45,855 nt of DNA from a virus: IMG/VR virus record IMGVR_UViG_3300048104_000385, positions 1 to 45,855 of that record; one strand, 5' to 3'. The notes below the pieces were generated by a model. That model had not been told where the DNA came from. It did no database searches and saw nothing but the letters and a program-made list of their open reading frames with translations. The translations under genes were made by a program, and so were the position numbers. Below are positions 2,394 through 44,378 of this stretch, piece after piece; position 1 is the first letter of the stretch; each line of letters begins with the position of its first letter.

Positions 2394-4907
2394 ATGAATT
2401 TTTATACTAATGTCGGCCGATATGGCAATATGCTACTCTATCGTGGTATCGAAAACGGTAATCGAGTAAGCAGAAAAGTAAAATACAAACCAACCTTGTA
2501 CGTCGCTACAAGTAAACCTACAGATTGGAAAGCGTTGGATGGAACTCCAGTTGCACCAGTCACACAATTCGAATCTATGCGTGATGCTAAAGATTGGATT
2601 AGTTTAAACAAAGAAGTTTCAGGACGAAAAATATACGGAAACAACCGTTATATTTCTACGTTTATAAACGAAAAGTTTCCAGGCGATATTGAATTTGATC
2701 GTAACGCAATTAATGTTACTACAATCGATATCGAAGTCGCATCAGACGACGGGTTTCCTGAACCAGATGTAGCTTCAAAAGAAGTTACTGCTATCTGTAT
2801 TAAAAACAATATTGACAATACTTATTACGTATGGGCATTAAGAGATTACGATGTAAATCAATCTATTATGCAAACAAATCGTGTCGTGTATAAAAAGTGC
2901 GATACTGAAGGCCAACTACTTTTGGACTTTATAACACATTGGTCATCACCAACGCATTGTCCAGATGTTGTTACAGGTTGGAACTCAAGATTTTTTGATA
3001 TTCCATACCTTGTAAACAGAATTAATAATTTACTAGGTTCTGACTGGGTTAAAAAGTTATCACCTTGGGGATTAATTGATTCACGAGATGTTACTATCAT
3101 GGCTCGTAAACAAACAGCATACGAAATTGCTGGAATATCTCAACTCGACTATATGGAACTATTCAAGAAGTTTGGTTATTCATACGGTGCACAAGAATCA
3201 TATTCACTTAATCATATATCACACGTTGTTCTAGGCGAAAAGAAACTTTCTTACGAAGAACACTCAAGTTTATTTAGTTTATACTTAAACGATCATCAAA
3301 AGTTTATTGACTATAATATTAAAGATGTTGAATTGGTCGATAGGATCGAAGATAAACTTGGTCTTATTACCCTTGCTTTAACGATGGCTTATCGCGGTGG
3401 TGTTAACTACGGCGATACATTTGGAACTACAGCGATATGGGATTCTATTATTTACAGGGATCTTTCAACACAAAAGATTGCAGTTCCATTCCAAGAGGAT
3501 AAAGTAAAAACACCATATCCTGGCGGATATGTTAAAGATCCACAAGTTGGAATAAACGATTGGGTAGTATCTTTTGATTTAAACTCACTATATCCATCCT
3601 TAATTATGCAATACAATATGTCGCCAGAAACAATAGCATCTGGTGAATTATCTGATTATGACGTCGATAGTATTCTTAAAAACCACACAATTGTAAATAA
3701 CAGAGGTAAAGCTGTAAGTGCAAATGGCCAATATTTTAATATCGACAAAAAGGGTATCTTACCTAAGATCATCGAACAGATGTATGGCGAAAGAGTTCAA
3801 ATTAAAAAGGCTATGATTAAAGCACAAAAGGAATTACAGAAGGTAGATAAAAATGATAAACAAGAAGTCTATAGAATTGAAAGGGATATTGCAATCAATG
3901 AAAACAGGCAAATGTCTATTAAAATTCTTCTTAATTCTCTTTATGGTGCTCTTGGCAACAAATACTTCAGATTCTTCGATCAACGAATTGCCGAAGGAAT
4001 TACACTTTCCGGACAACTTACAATACGATGGGCTGAAGAAGCCATCAATACATATCTCAATAAAGTGCTCAAAACTAACAAAGATTACGTCTTGGCAATC
4101 GACACCGATTCAGTGTATGTATGTTTAAACGACCTAGTTAAAGCAGTTAACCCTAGTAATCCTATTGATTTTCTAGACACAGTCTGTAGAGAAAAGCTAG
4201 AACCTGTCCTTGAAGAAGCATATAAAAAGTTATATGGTATCATGGGTGGTATCGAAAACAAAATGGTCATGGGACGAGAAGTAATTGCTGATCGTGGTCT
4301 TTGGACAGCAAAGAAACGATACATTCTTAATGTGCATGATAACGAAGGTGTACGATATGCAGAACCTAAACTAAAAATTATGGGTATTGAAGCTATTAAA
4401 TCTTCTACACCTGCACCATGTCGAGAAGCACTAAAAGAAATATTCAAAGTTATTATGCATTCATCTGAATCTGATGTACAAAAATCTATTGAGCATTTCA
4501 GACAATACTTCAGAACACTAGAACCAAACGATATTGCATTCCCTAGGGGTATAACCAATCTTACTTCGTTCCAAGACAGAAACACTATTTACAGAAAAGG
4601 TACTCCGATACATGCTCGTGGCGGAATACTTTACAACAAATTAATCGATGATCTATCGCTAGGTAAGCGATATAACAAAATCAATAACGGCGAAAAGATT
4701 AAATTCATTTATCTTAGAACGCCTAATCCTATAAAGGAAAATGTTATATCATTCCTAGATTATCTTCCAACAGAGTTTGGATTGAATAAATATATTGATC
4801 ACGAAACCCAATTTCAAAAAACTTTCCTAGATCCTATCGAACCAATACTCGATGCGATTGGTTGGTCTTCAAAAGAGGTATCTACGCTAGATGAGTTTTT
4901 TGGATAA
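2394..4907 (+). CDS. 43: DNA polymerase, family B (gp43)
   Basis: The 837-residue replicative polymerase has all family B landmarks in order: Exo I with D112 and E114 (TTIDIEVASDDG), Exo III around YNIKDVELVD, polymerase motif A (SFDLNSLYPS, near residue 394), motif B (KILLNSLYGALGNKY, near 510-524) and motif C (AIDTDSVYV, near 570). It combines 5'-3' synthesis with 3'-5' proofreading and works with the gp45 clamp loaded by gp44/62. It is shorter than T4 gp43 (about 900), as in other marine relatives. The ATG at 2394 follows AAAGGTGA, and the gene has its own promoter. Confidence 0.98.
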   Translation: MNFYTNVGRYGNMLLYRGIENGNRVSRKVKYKPTLYVATSKPTDWKALDGTPVAPVTQFESMRDAKDWISLNKEVSGRKIYGNNRYISTFINEKFPGDIEFDRNAINVTTIDIEVASDDGFPEPDVASKEVTAICIKNNIDNTYYVWALRDYDVNQSIMQTNRVVYKKCDTEGQLLLDFITHWSSPTHCPDVVTGWNSRFFDIPYLVNRINNLLGSDWVKKLSPWGLIDSRDVTIMARKQTAYEIAGISQLDYMELFKKFGYSYGAQESYSLNHISHVVLGEKKLSYEEHSSLFSLYLNDHQKFIDYNIKDVELVDRIEDKLGLITLALTMAYRGGVNYGDTFGTTAIWDSIIYRDLSTQKIAVPFQEDKVKTPYPGGYVKDPQVGINDWVVSFDLNSLYPSLIMQYNMSPETIASGELSDYDVDSILKNHTIVNNRGKAVSANGQYFNIDKKGILPKIIEQMYGERVQIKKAMIKAQKELQKVDKNDKQEVYRIERDIAINENRQMSIKILLNSLYGALGNKYFRFFDQRIAEGITLSGQLTIRWAEEAINTYLNKVLKTNKDYVLAIDTDSVYVCLNDLVKAVNPSNPIDFLDTVCREKLEPVLEEAYKKLYGIMGGIENKMVMGREVIADRGLWTAKKRYILNVHDNEGVRYAEPKLKIMGIEAIKSSTPAPCREALKEIFKVIMHSSESDVQKSIEHFRQYFRTLEPNDIAFPRGITNLTSFQDRNTIYRKGTPIHARGGILYNKLIDDLSLGKRYNKINNGEKIKFIYLRTPNPIKENVISFLDYLPTEFGLNKYIDHETQFQKTFLDPIEPILDAIGWSSKEVSTLDEFFG

Positions 4908-4960: not shown

Positions 4961-5257
4961 ATGAAAGATGAATATAAATTAATACGACTATCTTCTGGTG
5001 AAGAAGTAGTTGGTAAAGTTACACAAAATGAAGAATCAGTTACCATTACAGATGGTTATTCTTTGATTCCAGCAGGTGAAGGTAAAATTGGCTTCATGCC
5101 ATTTATGGCTTATACGAAGGCAGCAGAGGGAATTACTATTCCAAATAGTTTTATTCTATTTACTGTAGAACCAGTTGATGAACTAGTAGATCAAGTTAAA
5201 GCTATGAGCAGTCCTATTCAGGTGCCAGAAAAGCAAGGGATTATTACAAATGTCTAA
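4961..5257 (+). CDS. Small beta-rich protein, possibly Sm-like fold
   Basis: This 98-residue protein opens with YKLIRLSSGEEVVGKV, which resembles the first strands of Sm/LSm-like beta barrels seen in small proteins of marine T4-like phages (RL-TGE-v-G-V). The rest alternates hydrophobic and polar residues, as expected for strands, and the C-terminal part (EPVDELVDQVKAM) looks helical. No catalytic motif is visible. It is the first gene of a promoter-driven unit and overlaps the MazG-like gene by eight bases. An RNA-binding role would follow from an Sm fold but is only a guess. Confidence 0.6.
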   Translation: MKDEYKLIRLSSGEEVVGKVTQNEESVTITDGYSLIPAGEGKIGFMPFMAYTKAAEGITIPNSFILFTVEPVDELVDQVKAMSSPIQVPEKQGIITNV

Positions 5258-5651
5258 GAACTGGGTAGAAGATATTCACTTAATGCAAAGCAAATATCTT
5301 ACTAGGCAATGGGTTGAAAACAATCCTGAGAAACTAAAAAAGTTTCTTGAGTTTAGAGTTGATTTTTTGAAAGAAGAACTAATGGAAACAACAGCTGCGG
5401 TTACTAATAATGACCCAGAAGAAATTGTAGATGGTTTAATTGATCTATGTGTTGTTGCTATTGGTACACTCGATGCTTTTGGCGTTGATCCCTATAAAGC
5501 TTGGGATGCTGTACTAGAAGCTAATATGAACAAAGAAGTAGGACAAAAGCCAAGTAGGCCAAATCCACTAGGAGTTCCAGACCTAATTAAACCTGAAGGT
5601 TGGACCGCTCCATCACACGCAGGCAATCATGGTAAGTTTAACGATATTTAA
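5250..5651 (+). CDS. MazG/phosphoribosyl-ATP pyrophosphohydrolase-like protein
   Basis: Within 133 residues the motif EELMET (residues 37-42) followed by EEIVDGLIDLCVVAIG (55-70) reproduces the metal-binding EExxE...ExxD pattern of the all-alpha NTP pyrophosphatase superfamily (MazG, HisE, dUTPase-like). Such enzymes hydrolyse (d)NTPs or ppGpp-like nucleotides. MazG-like proteins are common in marine phages and may tune host nucleotide pools. The C-terminal part (KPSRPNPLGVPDLIKPEGW) resembles the extension of PRA-PH-like phage proteins. The exact substrate cannot be read from the sequence. Confidence 0.8.
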   Translation: MSKNWVEDIHLMQSKYLTRQWVENNPEKLKKFLEFRVDFLKEELMETTAAVTNNDPEEIVDGLIDLCVVAIGTLDAFGVDPYKAWDAVLEANMNKEVGQKPSRPNPLGVPDLIKPEGWTAPSHAGNHGKFNDI

Positions 5652-7816: not shown

Positions 7817-7845
7817 TGTACAATTGAACAAAACTATGGTATAAT
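7817..7845 (+). promoter_or_regulatory. TGTACA/extended -10 promoter of the modification operon
   Basis: TGTACA (7817-7822), 17-base spacer, TATGG-TATAAT (7840-7845). It heads the unit 7872-13558; no further promoter of this type is seen until 13531, so the eight or nine genes between are probably one operon. Confidence 0.8.
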
Positions 7846-7871
7846 AGTACTATAAACAGAAAGGTTATATT

Positions 7872-8210
7872 ATGAAAGAATCACTAAAAGTATTACAAGA
7901 ATGTGCCGAACTTCAGGCAAAGAAAAGTAATGACTATCAAAATCCAAACTCCAGGATTAAACAAGCAGATTACTACCCTCGTGGTGTAGCTTCAATCCTG
8001 GACATTATCCATGCTAAAACTCTCAGAATGTTCTCAGTTCTAGAAGCTATGGAATCAGATCCTGACTACAACCCAAACTTTGAATCACTAGAAGACTCTG
8101 GTAAAGATTTAATTAACTATGCTTCATTTATGGTTGCATATATGAGAGGTGGTATCGACGGCCAATCAGAAGACAATGACTTTTTAAATAGGAACAAAAA
8201 TGAATCTTGA
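7872..8210 (+). CDS. DUF1599 / nucleotide-modification-associated domain protein
   Basis: The 112-residue helical protein contains the pattern AKKSNDYQN (16-24), RGVASILDIIHAKTLRMFS (37-55) and ESLEDSGKDLINYASFMVAY (74-93), which I recognise as the DUF1599 family, associated with nucleotide modification and related in style to all-alpha NTP pyrophosphatases. It is the first gene after promoter 7817 and overlaps the dCMP hydroxymethylase gene by 11 bases. This suggests a role in nucleotide pool control for modified DNA. The biochemical activity is unknown. Confidence 0.7.
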   Translation: MKESLKVLQECAELQAKKSNDYQNPNSRIKQADYYPRGVASILDIIHAKTLRMFSVLEAMESDPDYNPNFESLEDSGKDLINYASFMVAYMRGGIDGQSEDNDFLNRNKNES

Positions 8211-8865
8211 AATCGACCAACTAAGAACTTATTTTCACAACGAACTTCGTAATGAAAGATTTACTGTAGACAGAAATGGCAGTAAAACAATCGAGTTAAT
8301 TGGTGCTTCGTTTTATGCTGATGAACCAGCTATATTTGGTGTTCCAAACAAAGCTTACATTGATGCAGAACTAAATTGGTATAACAGCCAATCTACAAAC
8401 ATTAATGATATCTATTTGGATAGCGATAAAGAACCACCTGCAGCATGGAAGATGACTGCTAATGAACATGGCGAAATCAATTCAAACTATGGTCATTTAA
8501 TTTATTCAGACAAATACGGTGCACAATTTGATATGGCACTATCTGAATTGTTACAAAACCCAGATTCGCGTAGAGCATCAATGATCTATACAAGACCAAG
8601 TATATGGTGTGAATATAACGAAAATGGTAAAAACGATTTTATATGTACAAACTCTGTTACATATTATATCCGTGAAGGTAAACTCGATTGTGTTGTACAA
8701 ATGCGATCTAATGATGTTATCTTTGGTTATCGTAATGATTATGCATGGCAGAAAGCAGTACTTGATGATATGGCGTATATGCTAAAAGTATTTCCAGGTG
8801 ATATTGTTTGGCAAGTACAAAACTTACATGTGTACGAAAGACATTTTAATTTGGTAAACCGATGA
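8200..8865 (+). CDS. 42: Deoxycytidylate hydroxymethylase (gp42 type)
   Basis: The 221-residue protein belongs to the thymidylate synthase superfamily but matches T4 gp42: IELIGASFYADEPAIFG (31-47), EINSNYG (92-98), NPDSRRASMIYTRPS (120-134), CTN with catalytic Cys149, MRSNDVIFGYRNDYAWQ (168-184) and LHVYERHF. Asp180 stands where thymidylate synthases have the dUMP-reading Asn; T4 hydroxymethylase has Asp there, giving dCMP specificity. It would make 5-hydroxymethyl-dCMP from dCMP and methylene-tetrahydrofolate. A separate ThyX at 16783 covers dTMP synthesis, which supports this call over ThyA. It lacks the C-terminal tail of the T4 protein (246 residues). Confidence 0.88.
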   Translation: MNLEIDQLRTYFHNELRNERFTVDRNGSKTIELIGASFYADEPAIFGVPNKAYIDAELNWYNSQSTNINDIYLDSDKEPPAAWKMTANEHGEINSNYGHLIYSDKYGAQFDMALSELLQNPDSRRASMIYTRPSIWCEYNENGKNDFICTNSVTYYIREGKLDCVVQMRSNDVIFGYRNDYAWQKAVLDDMAYMLKVFPGDIVWQVQNLHVYERHFNLVNR

Positions 8866-8913
8866 GCAATAAATGGGAATTCCCGAAGTTTGAAGCGATG
8901 AGCAATAAATGGG
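8862..8913 (+). repeat. Duplicated start region of the dCMP deaminase gene
   Basis: A 16-base segment beginning ATGAGCAATAAATGGG occurs at 8862 and again at 8898, in the same frame, so that the protein reads MSNKW twice. It looks like a short in-frame tandem duplication or insertion at the gene start. Confidence 0.85.
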
Positions 8914-9341
8914 ACAATAGATACTTAAACCTAGCTAGGGAAGTTTCAACTTGGTCAAAAGATCCAAGTACTCAAGTAGGTGCAGTTGCTATTGGAGAAA
9001 AGGGACAAGTATTAGCACAAGGCTATAATGGTTTCCCTAGAGGTGTTAATGATTCACTTGAAAGATACAACGATAAAGAAGTAAAATATCGCTATGTAGT
9101 TCATGCAGAAATGAATTGTATCTATAATGCTACATTTACTGGAGCATCTCTAAACAACGCTACAATGTATGTTTGGGGTTTACCAGTTTGTAATGAATGT
9201 GCAAAGGGATTAGCTCAAGTTGGAGTTAAGAGGGTAGTATCACCTAAGACAGTTGCAGATGTACCAGACAAATGGAAGATATCAGCAATTAACACGGTTG
9301 ATTTATTAAAGGAGGTTGGTATAACGTATGACTTCATTTAA
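8862..9341 (+). CDS. cd: Deoxycytidylate deaminase
   Basis: The 159-residue protein has the zinc-dependent deaminase motifs HAEMNCIYNA (zinc His and catalytic Glu) and PVCNECAKGL (two zinc Cys), with an N-terminal STWSKDPSTQVGAVAI typical of dCMP deaminases. It converts dCMP to dUMP, supplying dTMP synthesis (ThyX) and competing with the upstream dCMP hydroxymethylase for dCMP. The first ATG (8862) overlaps the gp42 stop codon, but a near-duplicate start (ATG 8898, same MSNKW peptide) lies 36 bases downstream and could be the true start. Confidence 0.92.
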   Translation: MSNKWEFPKFEAMSNKWDNRYLNLAREVSTWSKDPSTQVGAVAIGEKGQVLAQGYNGFPRGVNDSLERYNDKEVKYRYVVHAEMNCIYNATFTGASLNNATMYVWGLPVCNECAKGLAQVGVKRVVSPKTVADVPDKWKISAINTVDLLKEVGITYDFI

Positions 9342-9582
9342 TGAACAGTTACTGTATAAGAAAAACAGAAGAAATCCTAAGTTTAAAGATTACACTAAAG
9401 AAGATTTAGAAAATCATATCGAAAGCTTTCAAAAAGATTTACATAAATTACATATATTAAATGCACCAGAATCAATAAAACTAAATAAACAGAACATGCT
9501 TGGTGAAATTGTAAAAGAATATAAAGTACGATACGATAAAGGCGAATTTCAATACACAGGAGAAATCTCAAAGGATGAGTGA
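9328..9582 (+). CDS. Small charged hypothetical protein
   Basis: The 84-residue protein is rich in Lys, Glu and Asn and is predicted to be helical, with no recognised motif. An AAAGGAGG Shine-Dalgarno lies inside the end of the deaminase gene, which this gene overlaps by 14 bases, so translation is well supported. It lies in the middle of the putative DNA-modification operon; any link to that pathway is by position only. Confidence 0.7.
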   Translation: MTSFNEQLLYKKNRRNPKFKDYTKEDLENHIESFQKDLHKLHILNAPESIKLNKQNMLGEIVKEYKVRYDKGEFQYTGEISKDE

Positions 9583-9874
9583 TTATAGCGAAGAAGAATT
9601 AGCTAATTCAAAAAGAATTTTTAAATCGGCAACACCAAAGTATACTTTAGATTGGTATATAAAATGGATAGCTTCAGTTGTAGTTTTAGCTGCAATGTCT
9701 TTACGAGGTGTCGAAGGATTTCAATTATGGGACTTAGGACTTAGTATCATAGGAATATTTCTATGGTTGATAGTATCGGTCTTATGGAAAGATAGAGCAC
9801 TTATTTTATTAAATGGTGCTGGATTATTTTTACTAATTAAAAATTTAGTAATGCATTTAGTGAACGGAGGATAA
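9575..9874 (+). CDS. Three-helix membrane protein
   Basis: After a charged N-terminus (residues 1-28) the 99-residue protein has three hydrophobic segments: about 29-44 (WIASVVVLAAMSL), 51-69 (LGLSIIGIFLWLIVSVLW) and 74-95 (ALILLNGAGLFLLIKNLVMHLV). It is an integral membrane protein of unknown function. It overlaps the previous gene by eight bases and abuts the glycosyltransferase gene, so it is co-transcribed with the sugar genes. A transporter role is not supported by any motif. Confidence 0.7.
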   Translation: MSDYSEEELANSKRIFKSATPKYTLDWYIKWIASVVVLAAMSLRGVEGFQLWDLGLSIIGIFLWLIVSVLWKDRALILLNGAGLFLLIKNLVMHLVNGG

Positions 9875-10708
9875 ATGGAACACTTAATTATACCTACATT
9901 AGGTAGGATGGACAAACAAAGAACTTACAATAACTTACCAGAAAAGTATCAAAAACTAGTAAAGTTTATAGTTCAAGATCATGAGTACGCTCCTATGAGA
10001 GAGCGATATGGTGATGCTGTAGTAAAACTACCTAAGGAAATTTCTAGGCTATCGCCAACACGGCAATGGATTTGGGATGAGTTTTATGGAACAAGGCACA
10101 TGGTTTTAGACGATGACTTTGAGTACTTTAAATATAAAGGGCCAGCACCTGAAGGTATGGACACTAAATGGGAAACCAAGGATATGACAGAAGAAGAGTT
10201 TGACGATGCTTTTGCTACATTCGATAAATGGATAAAAGAAGAAAAGATTTATCACGGTGGATTCTCAACATCATGGGTTGTACCAGATCTAAAGTATTGG
10301 CCTCACCAAAATAACGTAAGGATTATGACTAACTGTTATTTTGATTCTAAAAATTTACCAAGAAATCTTATATGGGATAGGTTAGAAACCTCTCAAGATT
10401 TTGATGCTAATCTTCAATTGCTTACTCAAGGGTTTGCAAATAGGATTACCACAAGGTATCGTGTTAGCGTAACAGCGACTAACACTGCAGGTGGTTGTTC
10501 AAATTATAGAACAATCGAATTAAGTAATAAAGTGCATCAGCAGTTAGCTGAAATTTATCCAGATTACGTTGCTCTAAAAAGTAAGGTATTGGCTAATGGA
10601 CCATGGAAAGGACAAGACAGAATTACTTGTCATATTAGCTGGTCAAAAGCTTATAAAGATGCAATTAAAAAACAACAAGAATCAAGTTTGGAGACATTTT
10701 TCGGATGA
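9875..10708 (+). CDS. GT-A fold glycosyltransferase-like protein, possible DNA (hmC) glycosyltransferase
   Basis: The 277-residue protein begins with a strand ending in IIPTLGR (5-11), followed by a QRTYNNLP turn, SPTRQWIWD (60-68) and HMVLDDDFEYF (75-85), whose DDD fits the metal-binding DxD of GT-A glycosyltransferases. The layout recalls the TET-associated glycosyltransferases of phages that decorate 5-hydroxymethylcytosine in DNA. The neighbours supply hydroxymethyl-dCMP (gp42) and nucleotide sugars (11910, 12704), making DNA glycosylation a coherent inference. It could instead act on another phage or host target. An AACGGAGG Shine-Dalgarno supports the start. Confidence 0.65.
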   Translation: MEHLIIPTLGRMDKQRTYNNLPEKYQKLVKFIVQDHEYAPMRERYGDAVVKLPKEISRLSPTRQWIWDEFYGTRHMVLDDDFEYFKYKGPAPEGMDTKWETKDMTEEEFDDAFATFDKWIKEEKIYHGGFSTSWVVPDLKYWPHQNNVRIMTNCYFDSKNLPRNLIWDRLETSQDFDANLQLLTQGFANRITTRYRVSVTATNTAGGCSNYRTIELSNKVHQQLAEIYPDYVALKSKVLANGPWKGQDRITCHISWSKAYKDAIKKQQESSLETFFG

Positions 10709-11913
10709 AACACGCAGGTATAGTACCACTAATTGGTGGTGAAATTTTGGCATCAGCAGATGCTTATGGAACAGACCCAGAATATTTAATGACATATTCT
10801 GGATTTATGGCTAATGAAACGCACCTTTTAAATTATTATAAGGAACAAGGGAAGGATATTCCATATCATATTTTAGATGAAACTTCTGAAAAAATGGAAA
10901 ATGTGGACATTGTCTCTTCAGTTTGTCCATGTGCTGGATTAAGTACTTACCATAACTCACATGGTGAACAGAACGAAAACAACCAGTGGATGGAAAAATC
11001 ATCTGAATACGTTTTAAAGGAAGTTAAACCAAAGGTATTATGGGGAGAGAATGCTCCAGGATTATCTGGAAAGATTGGTAAATTTATGAGAGAAAAGCTC
11101 TATAAAATTGGCCAAGATAATGGTTATAACTTTTCGATTTATTTAACTAAAAGTTTACAGCATGGTAATCCACAATATCGTAAAAGAACATTCTTTTTCT
11201 TTTGGAAGAAAGATGAATTTAACGATAGGATCCCATTGTTTAACTATTATAATAAAGAAAGACCATTGATTCAAGATCTAATTAAAGGTGTTAACACTAA
11301 CTTTCAAACACAAGTTTTAAACCAAAAGACACCTTCGCAGGATGATCCATATTATAAGTATACCCTAGAAGTTGAATCTAAATGTACTCATGCTGAATTT
11401 GTTGAAAGGCATTCCCATGAAGAAAAATCTATTAATGTAGAATCTAGGTTAATGAAACTAGGTCATGATCATCTTAAACTTGCTGAATGGATGGATCAAT
11501 ATCCTCAGTTTGAAAGAGAAGCTGCAAAGGCTAGACGTAAAGCAGGTAAAATTGCATCAGGCGGTGGAATCATGCTTAGAGGTACAATTATTCCAATTAA
11601 TTATATTGGAGCATTTGTTGTGCATTTACCTAAGGTTATTGCTCATCCAACTGAAGATAGATACTTAAATGTTGCTGAAGGTAAAGCTATTATGGGATTA
11701 CCCTTAGATATGGAAGTACTAGATGTAGAAAAGAACTACAATCATATTTGCCAAAATGTTCCATTTGCAACAGCAAGGGATATGGCAGTAGAAGTTAAAG
11801 CAGTATTAGAAGGTAAAAGAGATAGTGTTGAAACAAGTTACTTATTTCAAAACAATTTAAACAGAAGTTATGATTATAAAAGAGAAGAAAATAGTTTGGA
11901 GGCATTTTTATGA
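10705..11913 (+). CDS. C5-cytosine DNA methyltransferase family protein
   Basis: The 402-residue protein has C5-methyltransferase motifs: a degenerate SAM motif I (VPLIGGEILA, 7-16), motif IV CPCAGLS with catalytic Cys76, motif VI ENAPG (115-119), motif VIII QYRKR (157-161), a variable target-recognition region (about 200-330) and motifs IX-X near NVPFATARDMA. It should transfer a group to C5 of cytosine in DNA. Its position between a putative hmC glycosyltransferase and sugar-nucleotide genes is odd, because a genome containing hydroxymethylcytosine would leave few free C5 positions. It overlaps both neighbours by four bases. Confidence 0.85.
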   Translation: MKHAGIVPLIGGEILASADAYGTDPEYLMTYSGFMANETHLLNYYKEQGKDIPYHILDETSEKMENVDIVSSVCPCAGLSTYHNSHGEQNENNQWMEKSSEYVLKEVKPKVLWGENAPGLSGKIGKFMREKLYKIGQDNGYNFSIYLTKSLQHGNPQYRKRTFFFFWKKDEFNDRIPLFNYYNKERPLIQDLIKGVNTNFQTQVLNQKTPSQDDPYYKYTLEVESKCTHAEFVERHSHEEKSINVESRLMKLGHDHLKLAEWMDQYPQFEREAAKARRKAGKIASGGGIMLRGTIIPINYIGAFVVHLPKVIAHPTEDRYLNVAEGKAIMGLPLDMEVLDVEKNYNHICQNVPFATARDMAVEVKAVLEGKRDSVETSYLFQNNLNRSYDYKREENSLEAFL

Positions 11914-12704
11914 TGAGAATATTATTAACAGGAAGCAAAAGTGGACCAAGGAAGGGTTTTATTGGAAGCAGATTTGCTAAAAAGTATGGTGATCAATATG
12001 AGATTGTAGAGTACACTGCAGATATTAGAAATGCAGAAGGTATTATTGTAAGCGATTTTGATTTCGTAATACACCTTGCAGCTTTGGCTGGAGTTCGAAG
12101 ATCACATGAAATTCCACAAGAATATTGGAAAACTAATGTAGAAGCATCTAAGTATATTTTTGAAGCATGCGAAAAGGCTAATGTTCCAATCATATATGCT
12201 TCATCATCAAGTGTTTATGAATGGTGGTTATCACCTTATGCTGCTACAAAATATGCTATGGAAGCTATAGCACCTAAGAATTCTATTGGATTAAGATTCC
12301 ATACGGTGTATGGTCCTGATAGCAGAGAAGATATGTTATACGATGCGCTTTTAAGAAAAGATCCAAAGTTAACATACCTAACTAATCACACTAGAGATTG
12401 GACTCATGTTGATGACGTATGCAGTGCAATAGATATTTGCATAACATACTTTGATATGATAGTTCACAATAAAGCAATTGATGTCGGTAATGGTAAACCT
12501 GTTACAGTAAAAGAAATGGCTGATAAAGTTTGGCCAGAGAATAATTTACCACTAAAAGAAGTTACTGGTGAACGACAAGATACATGTGCTGATCCAACAA
12601 TTTTAACTAAATTTGGTTGGGTTGCAAACCACCATGTATTAGAAGATGATTATAAAACGCAAACAATGAAACAATTAGACTTAAACTGGGATGGTAATAT
12701 ATAA
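11910..12704 (+). CDS. Nucleotide-sugar epimerase/decarboxylase (extended SDR), compact
   Basis: The 264-residue protein has an NAD-binding TG...GFIGS loop (7-20) carrying an unusual insert (SKSGPRK), HLAALAGV (55-62), SSSSVY (98-103), the catalytic YAATK (Y110, K114), LRFHTVYGP and a RDWTHVDDVCSAI segment. These mark the extended SDR group acting on UDP-sugars such as UDP-glucuronate 4-epimerase or UDP-xylose synthase. The loop between SSSVY and the catalytic Tyr is about 20 residues shorter than usual. It is followed directly by UDP-glucose dehydrogenase, whose product UDP-glucuronate is a likely substrate. Confidence 0.82.
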   Translation: MMRILLTGSKSGPRKGFIGSRFAKKYGDQYEIVEYTADIRNAEGIIVSDFDFVIHLAALAGVRRSHEIPQEYWKTNVEASKYIFEACEKANVPIIYASSSSVYEWWLSPYAATKYAMEAIAPKNSIGLRFHTVYGPDSREDMLYDALLRKDPKLTYLTNHTRDWTHVDDVCSAIDICITYFDMIVHNKAIDVGNGKPVTVKEMADKVWPENNLPLKEVTGERQDTCADPTILTKFGWVANHHVLEDDYKTQTMKQLDLNWDGNI

Positions 12705-13558
12705 TGAGATTAGCAATTATAGGGCATGGTTTTGTAGGTAAAGCAGTTGATTATGGATTTAGTAATCAGCAAGTAGAAAAAAGAATTTTAGATCCAAAGT
12801 ATGCTCATACTGATAATGATCAATACAAATTAAAAGATTGGAAACCTGATTTAATTTTCGTGTGTGTTCCTACACCTATGGGCGATGATGGTAATATCAA
12901 TAGCAGTATTTTAAAATCTGTAATGGATAATCTTGATGAATGCTTAAAGGAAACACTAATTGTTATTAAATCAACTGTTACACCAAATGTAATAGCTGAA
13001 TACAAATTTTGGAATAACGTTGTGTATAATCCAGAATTTTTAACAGAAAAGTCTGCATGTGAACAATTTGTAAATCCTGAGTTTCATATCTTTGGTGGAG
13101 ACATATATAATACTAAAAGGTTAGAAGAATTCTACGAAAAATATAGTTTATGTACACCATGCCCATCTTATCATATGAACCATGAAGAAGCTTCTTTGGT
13201 TAAATACACAATCAATTCATTCCTAGCAACTAAGATTACATTCTTTAATCAGCTCTACGATCTATGTAGAACTAACGGCGATGTCAATTTCAATACTATT
13301 ATTAAAGCAGTTGGTGCTGATAATAGAATTGCACCTTCGCATACTAAGGTTCCAGGATTTGATGGAAAGCAAGGATACGGTGGTGCATGTTTTCCTAAAG
13401 ATACTTTGGCTTTTGCAAAGTTCAGCGATGAGCTTTCTCTTTTGGCCAAAGCAATTGAGATAAACAATACGTATAGATCTCAATATGAAAGAGACGAAAG
13501 AGAAAAAGAACAAAATATTCAATTTAACCATGTACAATTAAACCAAAATATGGTATAA
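12704..13558 (+). CDS. UDP-glucose 6-dehydrogenase family protein, lacking the C-terminal domain
   Basis: The 284-residue protein has a Rossmann start (RLAIIGHGFVGKAV), FVCVPTPMG (52-60), KSTVTP (89-94), NPEFLTEKSA (109-118), the central helical domain with KYTINSFLATKITFFNQ and the catalytic GYGGACFPKDT (Cys229). It would oxidise UDP-glucose to UDP-glucuronate using two NAD+. Full-length family members have a second C-terminal nucleotide-binding domain (about 390-450 residues in all), which is missing here. The last 11 residues are encoded by the promoter for the next gene, so the C-terminus may have been shaped by that promoter. It is the last gene of the putative modification operon. Confidence 0.88.
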   Translation: MRLAIIGHGFVGKAVDYGFSNQQVEKRILDPKYAHTDNDQYKLKDWKPDLIFVCVPTPMGDDGNINSSILKSVMDNLDECLKETLIVIKSTVTPNVIAEYKFWNNVVYNPEFLTEKSACEQFVNPEFHIFGGDIYNTKRLEEFYEKYSLCTPCPSYHMNHEEASLVKYTINSFLATKITFFNQLYDLCRTNGDVNFNTIIKAVGADNRIAPSHTKVPGFDGKQGYGGACFPKDTLAFAKFSDELSLLAKAIEINNTYRSQYERDEREKEQNIQFNHVQLNQNMV

Positions 13559-13559
13559 T
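13531..13559 (+). promoter_or_regulatory. TGTACA/extended -10 promoter for bS21 and replication genes
   Basis: TGTACA (13531-13536), 17-base spacer, TATGG-TATAAT (13554-13559). It lies inside the end of the dehydrogenase gene, and the TAA stop of that gene is formed by the -10 element. Confidence 0.8.
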
Positions 13560-13583
13560 AGACTATATTAAACAAGGAGAACT

Positions 13584-13844
13584 ATGCCAAGTGTAGATTT
13601 AAGACCTCGTAAGAGGCACCCAAAAGATAAAAGGCCAGCATCAGAAATGCCATTTGATGTTGCTCTTAGAAAATTCAGAAAGGCAGTTGAAAGAGCTGGA
13701 ACTCTTCAAGATGTAAGACGAAAAGAGTTTTACGAAAAACCAACAGCCAAAAAGAAAAGGAAAAAAGCAGAAGCTTTAGCCAGATGGCGCAAAAAAGAAC
13801 GCTCAATGCAATTAAGACCTGAACGTGGTCGAGGAGGAAAATAA
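13584..13844 (+). CDS. rpsU: Phage-encoded ribosomal protein bS21
   Basis: The 86-residue basic protein contains the bS21 core almost unchanged in style: [18 protein letters not shown] (23-40) and [24 protein letters not shown]. Around it are an Arg/Lys-rich N-terminal extension ([16 protein letters not shown]) and an Arg-rich tail. bS21 sits near the 3' end of 16S rRNA in the 30S subunit and affects translation initiation. Phage copies can replace the host protein and steer ribosomes. It is the first gene after promoter 13531 with an AAGGAG Shine-Dalgarno and is coupled to uvsX through a one-base overlap. Confidence 0.95.
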
Positions 13845-16782: not shown

Positions 16783-17445
16783 ATGAACGTGAGTCTTATA
16801 TCATATTCGCAACCCTCAGAGGACCTCGCCCCGACAACGGGCGAGGATCTTCTTCAATTAGTTTCATACTGTGCTCGAGTGTCCAATCCTGGAAACCAAA
16901 CAAGTCATGAAACATCAGAAAAACTCGTTAAGTATTTAATTAAAAATCAACATTGGTCTCCATTAGAAATGGTATCAGTTTGTATGGAAATTAATACTAC
17001 ACGAGATATCGCACGACAAATTTTAAGACACAGATCTTTTTCATTCCAAGAATTTTCTCAAAGGTATGCTGATCCCACTAAGGATTTAGAATTTACCACC
17101 AGAGAAGCTAGGATGCAAGATACTAAAAATAGACAGAATTCTATTGAATTAAACCAAGAAGATTCTATTAATTATGTTTGGGAATCGTACCAAGAAGTAA
17201 TAATCGAAAGGTGCAGACAAGCATATGATTGGGCTATTGAAGCTGGTATTGCAAAAGAGCAGGCCAGAGCAGTATTACCAGAAGGATTAACTATGAGTAG
17301 GATGTACGTTAATGGTACTCTTAGATCATGGATTCACTATATTCAATTGAGGTCAGCACACGGCACTCAAAAAGAACATATAGAGATTGCTAAAATTTGT
17401 GGTGAAGTTATATCAAAAGTGTTCCCTTATAACGAAATAGTATAA
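16783..17445 (+). CDS. thyX: FAD-dependent thymidylate synthase ThyX
   Basis: The 220-residue protein has the ThyX signature RHRSFSFQEFSQR (82-94, RHRxxSxxxxSxR), HWSPLEMVSVCMEI upstream, ARAVLPEGLTMSRMYVNGTLRSW and the final RSAHGTQKEH region. It makes dTMP from dUMP using methylene-tetrahydrofolate, FAD and NADPH. Together with dCMP deaminase (8862) it completes a dCMP-to-dTMP route, and its presence argues that the ThyA-like protein at 8200 is the hydroxymethylase. Codons 14-22 form a GC-rich block that folds into a strong hairpin. Confidence 0.97.
   Translation: MNVSLISYSQPSEDLAPTTGEDLLQLVSYCARVSNPGNQTSHETSEKLVKYLIKNQHWSPLEMVSVCMEINTTRDIARQILRHRSFSFQEFSQRYADPTKDLEFTTREARMQDTKNRQNSIELNQEDSINYVWESYQEVIIERCRQAYDWAIEAGIAKEQARAVLPEGLTMSRMYVNGTLRSWIHYIQLRSAHGTQKEHIEIAKICGEVISKVFPYNEIV
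16824..16846 (+). promoter_or_regulatory. GC-rich hairpin inside the start of thyX
   Basis: CCTCGCCC (16824-16831) pairs perfectly with GGGCGAGG (16839-16846) around a seven-base loop. It lies about 40 bases after the start codon and is strikingly GC-rich for this genome. It is preceded by CCTCAGAGG. There is no T-run, so it is more likely an mRNA structure affecting translation or stability than a terminator. Confidence 0.6.
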
Positions 17446-42953: not shown

Positions 42954-44378
42954 ATGATTAATTTTAATGGCTACATCACGGAAGAGATAGAAAAACGAGG
43001 AGTCACGGAAGTTGCTATATTGGCACTAGATGCTGATGAAGGAACTGCCGCTGACATAATCTCTAATGTTTGTGAGTTTAACGATGTTAAATGCACACTT
43101 ATACACACCAACAAAGCATTCCTAGCGGATAGCGATGTAGAACTAAGGAAGGTTGAGATACATAATATTGATGGTGAAGGTAAACTTATATCTTTAGACA
43201 TTGATAATACTATCATCTTTGTTAGGGCTGGTGCTGTAGGAACCTTAGTAGGGCAGGCATTAGTATCATCATTACAGACAGCTGGATTCTTTTTAATAAA
43301 TGATTTAGAATCTATGTTATTATGTAATAATAAAATGGCAACAAGTATTGCACTACAAAGAAACAATGTGCAGATACCTAAAACAGCCATTTTAAACAAT
43401 GAAGAATCTATTGATTTAGCTGTAAAAAGCGTTGGTGGTAAATATCCATTAATCATAAAAACACTTACAGGAACACAAGGTATTGGTGTATCTAAGGTAG
43501 AATCATATGATTCGTTAATCTCAGTATGCCAATCTTTATGGAAGTTTGAAGCACAGTTGTTATTACAAGAATATTTAGAAATGAAATCTGATATTAGAAC
43601 ACTTGTAATAAATGGCCATATTATGGCATCAGCTGAAAGAAAACAAACTAAAAAATCTAAAGACTTTAGAAAAAATGTTCATAGGGGTGCGGAAGCAATT
43701 CCATATAAACTATCTGAAGAGGAAGTAGAAGTAATACTAAATGCTGCTCGAGCAACTGGCGCATATTATTGTGGAGTTGATCATACAGTAGTTAATGGTG
43801 AAATATATGTTGTTGAAGTAAACGGTTCGCCTGGTGCTAAATCACACTTTATGGGTTATGATTTAGAAACTAATAAACCTACTAAACCTTTAACTGCTGA
43901 GAAAGCAATCGATTTAATGATTAAACATATATTAGAACCATACAATAGAAAAACTTGGTTTAGACAAGAAGCTGGATATATAGAAACAGTTCATATTGAA
44001 GGTTATAAACTACCGATTAGAGCTAAATTTGATACAGGTAATGGAACAGACGCTTCCATGTTACATGTTGATAAAGTAGAAGTAAAGAATAATAAAGTTT
44101 ATTGGGAAAAGAATGGTCAAAAATTCGTTAACAAATACCTTGGTAAATCAGTAGGTGTTAGAGGTCCTAATAATAAAATTGAAAGAGCTAAGGTAGAACT
44201 TACAGTTAAATTTAATGGTAGATCATATAATGCATTTATTGGTTTAACTGTAGAAGACTCAGCAAGTGAAATGTTAGTTAATAGAGAATTAATGACACTT
44301 ATGAGAATAGCAATTAATCCAAGCTTAAGGTTTGGTATTAGTGATTGGACAAGAAAGAACGATGAAACTGACGTTTAA
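42954..44378 (+). CDS. RimK-type ATP-grasp ligase fused to a retropepsin-like domain, tag-like N-terminus
   Basis: The 474-residue protein has three parts. Residues 1-14, MINFNGYITEEIEK, look like a capsid-targeting tag. Residues about 18-325 are a RimK-like ATP-grasp enzyme: DLESMLLCNNKMAT, PLIIKTLTGTQGIGV (ATP-binding Lys169 and Gly loop), QEYLEMKSDIRTLVINGHIMASAERK and the metal-binding VVEVNGSPG. Residues about 340-465 match the RimK-associated retropepsin-like protease domain, with KFDTGNGTDAS (DTG at 360-362) and the late MLVNRELM. Bacterial RimK adds glutamates to ribosomal protein S6. A packaged enzyme that modifies host translation is inferred. The start follows a late promoter by five bases. 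Confidence 0.85.
   Translation: MINFNGYITEEIEKRGVTEVAILALDADEGTAADIISNVCEFNDVKCTLIHTNKAFLADSDVELRKVEIHNIDGEGKLISLDIDNTIIFVRAGAVGTLVGQALVSSLQTAGFFLINDLESMLLCNNKMATSIALQRNNVQIPKTAILNNEESIDLAVKSVGGKYPLIIKTLTGTQGIGVSKVESYDSLISVCQSLWKFEAQLLLQEYLEMKSDIRTLVINGHIMASAERKQTKKSKDFRKNVHRGAEAIPYKLSEEEVEVILNAARATGAYYCGVDHTVVNGEIYVVEVNGSPGAKSHFMGYDLETNKPTKPLTAEKAIDLMIKHILEPYNRKTWFRQEAGYIETVHIEGYKLPIRAKFDTGNGTDASMLHVDKVEVKNNKVYWEKNGQKFVNKYLGKSVGVRGPNNKIERAKVELTVKFNGRSYNAFIGLTVEDSASEMLVNRELMTLMRIAINPSLRFGISDWTRKNDETDV

Follow-up and report, generated by a model that had tools for sequence, protein, structure and literature searches.

A candidate operon for replication-coupled cytosine hypermodification in a T4-like virus

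Gene content and setting of the locus

The IMG/VR entry IMGVR_UViG_3300048104_000385 (45,855 bases; the window hereafter) is in itself one virus record, from a marine relative of phage T4, and has replication genes of the T4 kind. On its + strand, at positions 7872-13558, it carries nine abutting genes, most of which overlap or adjoin. In order, they encode a DUF1599/Nmad1 protein, a dCMP hydroxymethylase, a dCMP deaminase, two small proteins, a glycosyltransferase of the TAGT family, a C5-cytosine methyltransferase homologue (C5MT), a short-chain dehydrogenase/reductase (SDR) and a UDP-glucose 6-dehydrogenase (UGD). An initial annotation of this DNA had proposed that the genes make 5-hydroxymethylcytosine (hmC) and decorate it with a uronic acid or a pentose derived from UDP-glucuronate; every gene that it named lies where it was placed, on the + strand, and family searches confirm each of them, DUF1599 through its relatives. 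On balance, an operon for replication-coupled cytosine hypermodification is the best explanation of the locus. Protein families, key residues, linkage and a tail motif were read from sequence, and from these we infer the chemistry, the sugar donor and a contact with the sliding clamp.

The operon occupies the same slot as in T4, with the DNA polymerase on one side and UvsX on the other: the T4 order 43-imm-42-b-gt-uvsX matches the layout of the window, as does the order polymerase-hydroxymethylase-TAGT-DNA repair protein of Klebsiella Jiaodavirus. The promoter predicted at 7817 belongs to a 30-base promoter-like repeat, of which the window has four copies at no more than 3 mismatches against 0 expected by shuffling. 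The upstream copy (7817-7846, + strand), TGTACAATTGAACAAAACTATGGTATAATA, keeps its position in relatives, and a second one (13531-13560, + strand) overlaps the end of the last gene and heads the S21-uvsX genes. Because these two copies frame exactly 7872-13558, the operon can be regarded as bracketed. Both are present in most near relatives; the upstream copy deviates in loci L014, L016 and L021, and neither copy is seen in the most diverged ones (L023-L026). The ratio of nonsynonymous to synonymous substitution rates was 0.06-0.27 for the five operon enzymes tested, which therefore evolve under purifying selection.

Predicted enzymes for the base and its sugar

The hydroxymethylase (221 aa; 8200-8865, + strand) is a clear homologue of T4 gp42 (PDB 1b49, E=2.4e-69). 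It has the T4-specific Asp180 noted in the initial annotation, which is the Asp of RNDYAWQK and replaces Asn177 of thymidylate synthase (TS), together with Cys149, and both residues are invariant in the alignment. The enzyme has the sequence features of the T4 type and is closer to gp42 than to other members of the TS family, with 53% identity to gp42 versus 25% to RB69 ORF048, a homologue described as a 5-hydroxy-dCMP synthase (PMC13390438). A role in thymidylate synthesis is less likely because the window encodes a separate thymidylate synthase, ThyX (16783-17445, + strand; PF02511, E=5e-41). The hydroxymethylase is followed by the dCMP deaminase (159 aa; 8862-9341, + strand; PF00383, E=9.5e-19; phrog_174, E=3e-43) and preceded by the Nmad1 protein (112 aa; 7872-8210, + strand), a putative nucleotide pyrophosphohydrolase matching the phrog_18404 hydrolase (E=4.5e-12). 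Its assignment to DUF1599 held through the family only: PF07659 matched four of seven aligned relatives (best E=7.4e-07), whereas the window protein itself obtained no score. Upstream of the operon, a MazG/PRA-PH-like pyrophosphohydrolase (5250-5651, + strand; PF01503, E=9.1e-12; phrog_671, E=1.9e-22) is a candidate for dCTP removal; it and Nmad1 match different parts of the PHROG 18404 hydrolase, which suggests a joint function. In an experimental metagenome study (PMC8670742), the domains PF00303, PF00383 and PF01503, all carried by the window, were among those reported to occur together on contigs with modified cytosine. The modified base is very probably hmC.

The glycosyltransferase (277 aa; 9875-10708, + strand) belongs to TAGT (PF20691, E=4.9e-18, 66.2 bits versus a cut-off of 27.5; phrog_842, E=2.4e-36). 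The GT-A character and the DDD motif expected of it were both recovered: the acidic metal motif, residues 79-81, is invariant in the aligned relatives, and a structure model (pLDDT 82.5) matches GT-A enzymes. Searched singly against the PDB by phmmer, neither the TAGT nor the C5MT sequence gave a match; their structural matches come from the family profile and from structure models. The gene lies in the slot of T4 b-gt and of the Klebsiella TAGT, and sister phages carry at this position homologues of T4 alpha-GT (PF11440, E to 1.4e-74), which supports hmC in DNA as the acceptor; we thus have good reason to expect that the predicted transferase glycosylates hmC in DNA. A profile search for a second DNA glycosyltransferase of the alpha- or beta-GT type found none in the window and four relatives, the alpha-GT model being positive in sister contigs and the beta-GT model having no positive control. 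Solitary TAGTs were noted as probable new transferases in a 2026 paper (PMC13216743).

The last two genes point to the donor. The UGD (284 aa; 12704-13558, + strand; PF00984/PF03721; TIGR03026, E=6e-41) has its catalytic residues C229, K167, N171 and D233 invariant in the alignment. The SDR (264 aa; 11910-12704, + strand; PF01370) is, by its diagnostic residues, a probable UDP-glucuronate 4-epimerase, and its strongest PDB matches are MoeE5 (6kv9), 5u4q and 6zl6, the last being the UDP-glucuronate 4-epimerase of Bacillus cereus. It contains HLAALAGVR, TVYGPxxRxDM, Tyr-x3-Lys and SSSS at the place where decarboxylases have Glu; the full-length relatives L026 and L068 share the TVYGPxxRxDM pattern. 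The carboxylate-binding Ser of UDP-glucuronate 4-epimerase is a Glu in decarboxylases (PMC7984243), and judged against that work and the PDB segments of 6zl6 and 6kv9, the window protein has the residues of the epimerase. It departs from the UDP-glucuronate decarboxylases (UXS/ArnA), with Ser versus the Glu of ArnA, and GalE differs from it too. Of the dual label epimerase/decarboxylase given at first, only the epimerase half is retained, and a pentose donor made by a decarboxylase was rejected on these residues. Because the SDR has the 4-epimerase residues without the decarboxylase Glu, UDP-galacturonate is the best-supported donor, over a pentose. Judging from the gene sequences, a uronic acid is somewhat favoured as the sugar on hmC, and the attached sugar would probably be galacturonic acid; no report of a uronic acid on phage hmC was found in the open-access literature searched.

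The set of genes is kept together in homologous loci of IMG/VR. Genes belonging to it recur in 23 loci retrieved with TAGT, whose TAGT identity ranges from 100% to about 67%, the order being changed to TAGT-SDR-UGD-C5MT in the four most diverged. Among TAGT-anchored loci with enough flank, the hydroxymethylase is present in 29 of 31, SDR with UGD in 28 of 29 and C5MT in 25 of 29. In other loci a glycosyltransferase of the alpha-GT type also travels with SDR, UGD and C5MT. Since such cassettes occur commonly in IMG/VR, the earlier view of the modification as not expected in known marine T4-like phages understated their occurrence.

The methyltransferase homologue and the shared C-terminal tail

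The C5MT (402 aa; 10705-11913, + strand; PF00145, E=3.5e-18) has invariant PC, ENA and QxRxR motifs, which hold the catalytic Cys, Glu and Arg, and an invariant PLIGG across the family instead of the canonical motif I FxGxGG. Its structure model (pLDDT 89.4) has M.HhaI as best PDB match and CmoX (8yf3) among the top matches. A search of IMG/VR with the C5MT-family alignment provided the best-scoring 80 of at least 591 loci, a non-random sample that includes about ten near relatives of the window. Where at least 4 kb of upstream sequence was available, these loci contained the hydroxymethylase in 50 of 51 cases and the deaminase in 45 of 51, and TAGT and UGD in only 10 of 51; C5MT and dCMP hydroxymethylase are almost always found together, independently of the sugar cassette beside them, T4 alpha-GT homologues included. 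It directly follows the variable sugar cassette in all eight loci read gene by gene, and the cultured phages S-TIM5 and XG4 encode a C5MT homologue along with a TS homologue in which the Asp is present (read by eye from the motif in S-TIM5). Its product would tentatively be 5-methylcytosine (5mC), most simply on residual cytosines. The DNA carboxymethyltransferase CmoX (from S-B43) is likewise a phage protein of the C5-methyltransferase fold, but its key Arg350 corresponds to Asn351 here and CmoA (TIGR00740) had no match in five records, and CmoX-type carboxymethylation was rejected on these grounds.

Three loci show other contents around C5MT. In L096 (4251-8297) and L090 (5961-10004, by sequence reading only) the cassette before C5MT contains inositol-1-phosphate synthase-like and HAD-like proteins; in L096 these are followed by a protein resembling 5-hmdU-DNA kinase (PF18723, E=1.6e-11) and by one of 367 aa without Pfam match, both ending in the tail described below. 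In Pseudoalteromonas phage XG4 (L004, 100-6580), an unannotated cluster combines a homologue of the hydroxymethylase with a nucleotidyltransferase-kinase fusion, a C5MT homologue and two probable glycosyltransferases.

The polymerase, TAGT and C5MT have similar C-termini. The family-B DNA polymerase (gene 2394-4907), used as reference, terminates in STLDEFFG (4881-4904, + strand), TAGT in SSLETFFG (10682-10705, + strand) and C5MT in NSLEAFL (11890-11910, + strand), the common motif S/T-L-D/E-x-F-F/L being a putative sliding-clamp-binding one. T4 gp43 ends in ASLDFLFG and T4 gp55 has SLDFLYEAND at its end, and these two tails contact gp45. T4 alpha-GT, too, binds gp45 (PMC13216743). In the window, a loose form of the pattern is found in 5 of 115 open reading frames (ORFs) of at least 60 aa, namely the polymerase, TAGT, C5MT and two minus-strand ORFs that are not gene-like. 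Across loci it is the polymerases, TAGT, C5MT and the cassette glycosyltransferases that bear the tail: the loose pattern occurs in 12 of 14 TAGTs and 46 of 70 C5MTs, and in no SDR (0/33), UGD (0/65), deaminase (0/63) or Nmad1 (0/50), while the hydroxymethylases have it in 4 of 72 (none of 72 with the strict pattern). Since the pattern was devised after the tails had been seen, these counts describe rather than test, and the stronger evidence lies in the difference between enzymes that act on DNA and those that act on nucleotides. The tail is thus likely to serve in tethering DNA-acting enzymes to the clamp. The related phage C48C1 (L002, 9178-10062) has near its SDR-UGD pair an adenine-N6 methyltransferase (PF02086) with the polymerase-like tail STLDAFFG.

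Explanations of the operon and its neighbouring genes

The operon is a variant of T4-type cytosine glycosylation. It shares with T4 and T6 the T4-type dCMP hydroxymethylase, a glycosyltransferase between gene 42 and uvsX, the TAGT family and the clamp link, known there for T4 alpha-GT; unlike them, it also encodes UGD and SDR, which would supply a uronic donor, has a C5MT partner and clamp-like tails, and in the contigs searched its TAGT is not accompanied by any recognisable alpha- or beta-GT. RB69 and other Mosigviruses, with arabinosyl cytosine, also make their own sugar donor from a cluster between polymerase and uvsX, but their base is 5-hydroxy-dC and their transferase a GT-B candidate. 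RB69-type phages had been cited as precedent for using UGD products on hmC, which was not supported and makes RB69 a poor model: the RB69 cluster, from 43 to uvsX, contains an annotated arabinose-5-phosphate isomerase and a guanyltransferase-like protein and no annotated UGD, and its sugar is now reported to sit on 5-hydroxy-dC instead of hmC (PMC13390438). The window module lacks these annotated sugar genes and, with a synthase only 25% identical, does not fit arabinosylation of that type. Shewanella phage Thanatos, with pentosyl cytosine, has a hydroxymethyltransferase, a deaminase and a dedicated donor enzyme as well, but its route uses a UDP-xylose pyrophosphorylase (PMC12838424). Bacillus phage SP-15 combines a phage UGD with glucuronic acid on phage DNA (PMC5977210); unlike the window, it has a uracil base (DHPU), a phosphodiester link and a full-length UGD.

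We propose the following scenario. Nmad1 and the upstream MazG-like protein would lower the dCTP pool, the deaminase would feed dUMP to ThyX, and the hydroxymethylase would generate hydroxymethyl-dCMP, reaching DNA as hmC. UGD would then produce UDP-glucuronate and SDR convert it to UDP-galacturonate, from which TAGT, held by the clamp at the fork through its C-terminal tail, would move the uronic acid onto hmC in newly made DNA. With the same tail, C5MT would act on cytosine or hmC, most simply methylating the unmodified cytosines that are left.

Several observations weigh against this scenario. The T4-type hydroxymethyl-dCMP kinase was not found (PF21448 search, window and four relatives), nor did phmmer detect homologues of gp1 and gp56, either in the window or in the 136.8, 88.8 and 67.4 kb contigs of relatives, which are possibly incomplete. 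The UGD matches only the N-terminal and central Pfam domains and is devoid of the C-terminal UDP-binding domain of the cellular enzymes; it and eight other short aligned relatives end at about the same point. The tail pattern is missed by 24 of the 70 distinct C5MT tails, several of them variants such as DITEFMT, and the tail is lacking in outside TAGTs, both those of the coliphage type and others (from phages of Klebsiella, Acinetobacter and Brevibacterium). Among phages, the SDR has its nearest homologues in cyanophages, the one of S-PRM1 without adjoining UGD. Finally, phage C48C1 has SDR and UGD at the same slot, and its complete genome has no detectable hydroxymethylase, alpha-GT or TAGT, so that uronate can be tied to DNA only tentatively; because many UGD-anchored loci also show no hydroxymethylase within the available flank, the uronate may have another use.

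That other use is central to the proposal that TAGT adds ordinary glucose to hmC from the UDP-glucose of the host, as in T6-type phages, and that SDR and UGD serve, for example, a surface or virion glycan. Known TAGTs do use UDP-glucose (PMC13216743, PMC13390438), the gene content of C48C1 is compatible with it, and the TAGT-anchored locus L070 has a hydroxymethylase without SDR or UGD. Against it stand the near-constant presence of SDR and UGD beside TAGT, their inclusion in a single promoter-bracketed unit and the alpha-GT-type cassettes that hold them between the glycosyltransferase and C5MT, and we consider it unlikely. C5-methyltransferases are active on hmC in vitro, and C5MT could make no 5mC but work on hmC, for instance by adding a second group via Cys-activated hmC; its near-constant pairing with dCMP hydroxymethylase in the presence of any of the sugar cassettes, the invariant catalytic residues and the family-specific PLIGG speak for this, but the fold and active site match M.HhaI, the features of CmoX were not found and protection of leftover cytosines is simpler, which makes such a role quite doubtful. 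An SDR acting as UDP-glucuronate decarboxylase, giving xylose or arabinose, is improbable: pentoses are known on phage cytosine in RB69 and Thanatos (PMC13390438, PMC12838424) and decarboxylases belong to the same superfamily, but Ser at the key position, TVYGPxxRxDM (also in L026 and L068) and HLAAxxGVR are those of UDP-glucuronate 4-epimerases, and RB69, as annotated, has other genes in its cluster. A 5-hydroxycytosine base, or a TS homologue that only feeds nucleotide salvage, is very improbable even though Mosigviruses rely on a 5-hydroxy-dCMP synthase from the TS family (PMC13390438), in view of the resemblance to gp42 rather than RB69, Asp180, the separate ThyX and the linked glycosyltransferase; 5-hydroxycytosine was rejected as the base. 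Of the initial proposal, therefore, hmC and an adjoining DNA glycosyltransferase stand, a uronic donor is favoured and the pentose is not.

A broader reading, possible but somewhat speculative, is that of a modular, clamp-tethered cytosine-writing system common in marine viruses, which here would yield galacturonosyl-hmC, with a C5MT step on hmC DNA. Its fixed core would consist of dCMP hydroxymethylase, deaminase, usually Nmad1, and the C5MT homologue, and its exchangeable cassettes of TAGT or alpha-GT with UDP-uronate genes, alpha-GT alone, other GT-B enzymes, or the inositol-phosphate type.

Two operon genes had not been stressed in the initial annotation. The first (84 aa; 9328-9582, + strand) gave no usable match in Pfam and PHROG family searches; the second (99 aa; 9575-9874, + strand) encodes a DUF6552 membrane protein (PF20189, E=9.1e-19) weakly resembling SemiSWEET sugar transporters (NF037968 SemiSWEET_2, E=0.0037), with four weak PDB matches (E 0.12-0.63), two annotated as SemiSWEET, one as 'chemical transport protein' and one as 'uncharacterized'. 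Beyond the operon, a phage ribosomal protein S21 (13584-13844) is nearest to gamma- and betaproteobacterial S21, except for one 79% match on a Pirellulales metagenome-assembled contig that may be viral; this likeness was considered too weak to name a host. A RimK-like ATP-grasp protein lies at 42954-44378 (PF08443, E=2.4e-33).

If the proposed scenario is true, a uronic acid on hmC would add negative charge to the surface of the phage DNA and could alter its recognition by nucleases and modification-dependent defences. The shared polymerase-like tail offers a concrete and testable way for modification to keep up with replication. The near-constant association between dCMP hydroxymethylase and C5MT raises a question that can be answered with purified proteins, and the cultured phages S-TIM5 and XG4, which carry both, already allow part of it to be tested.

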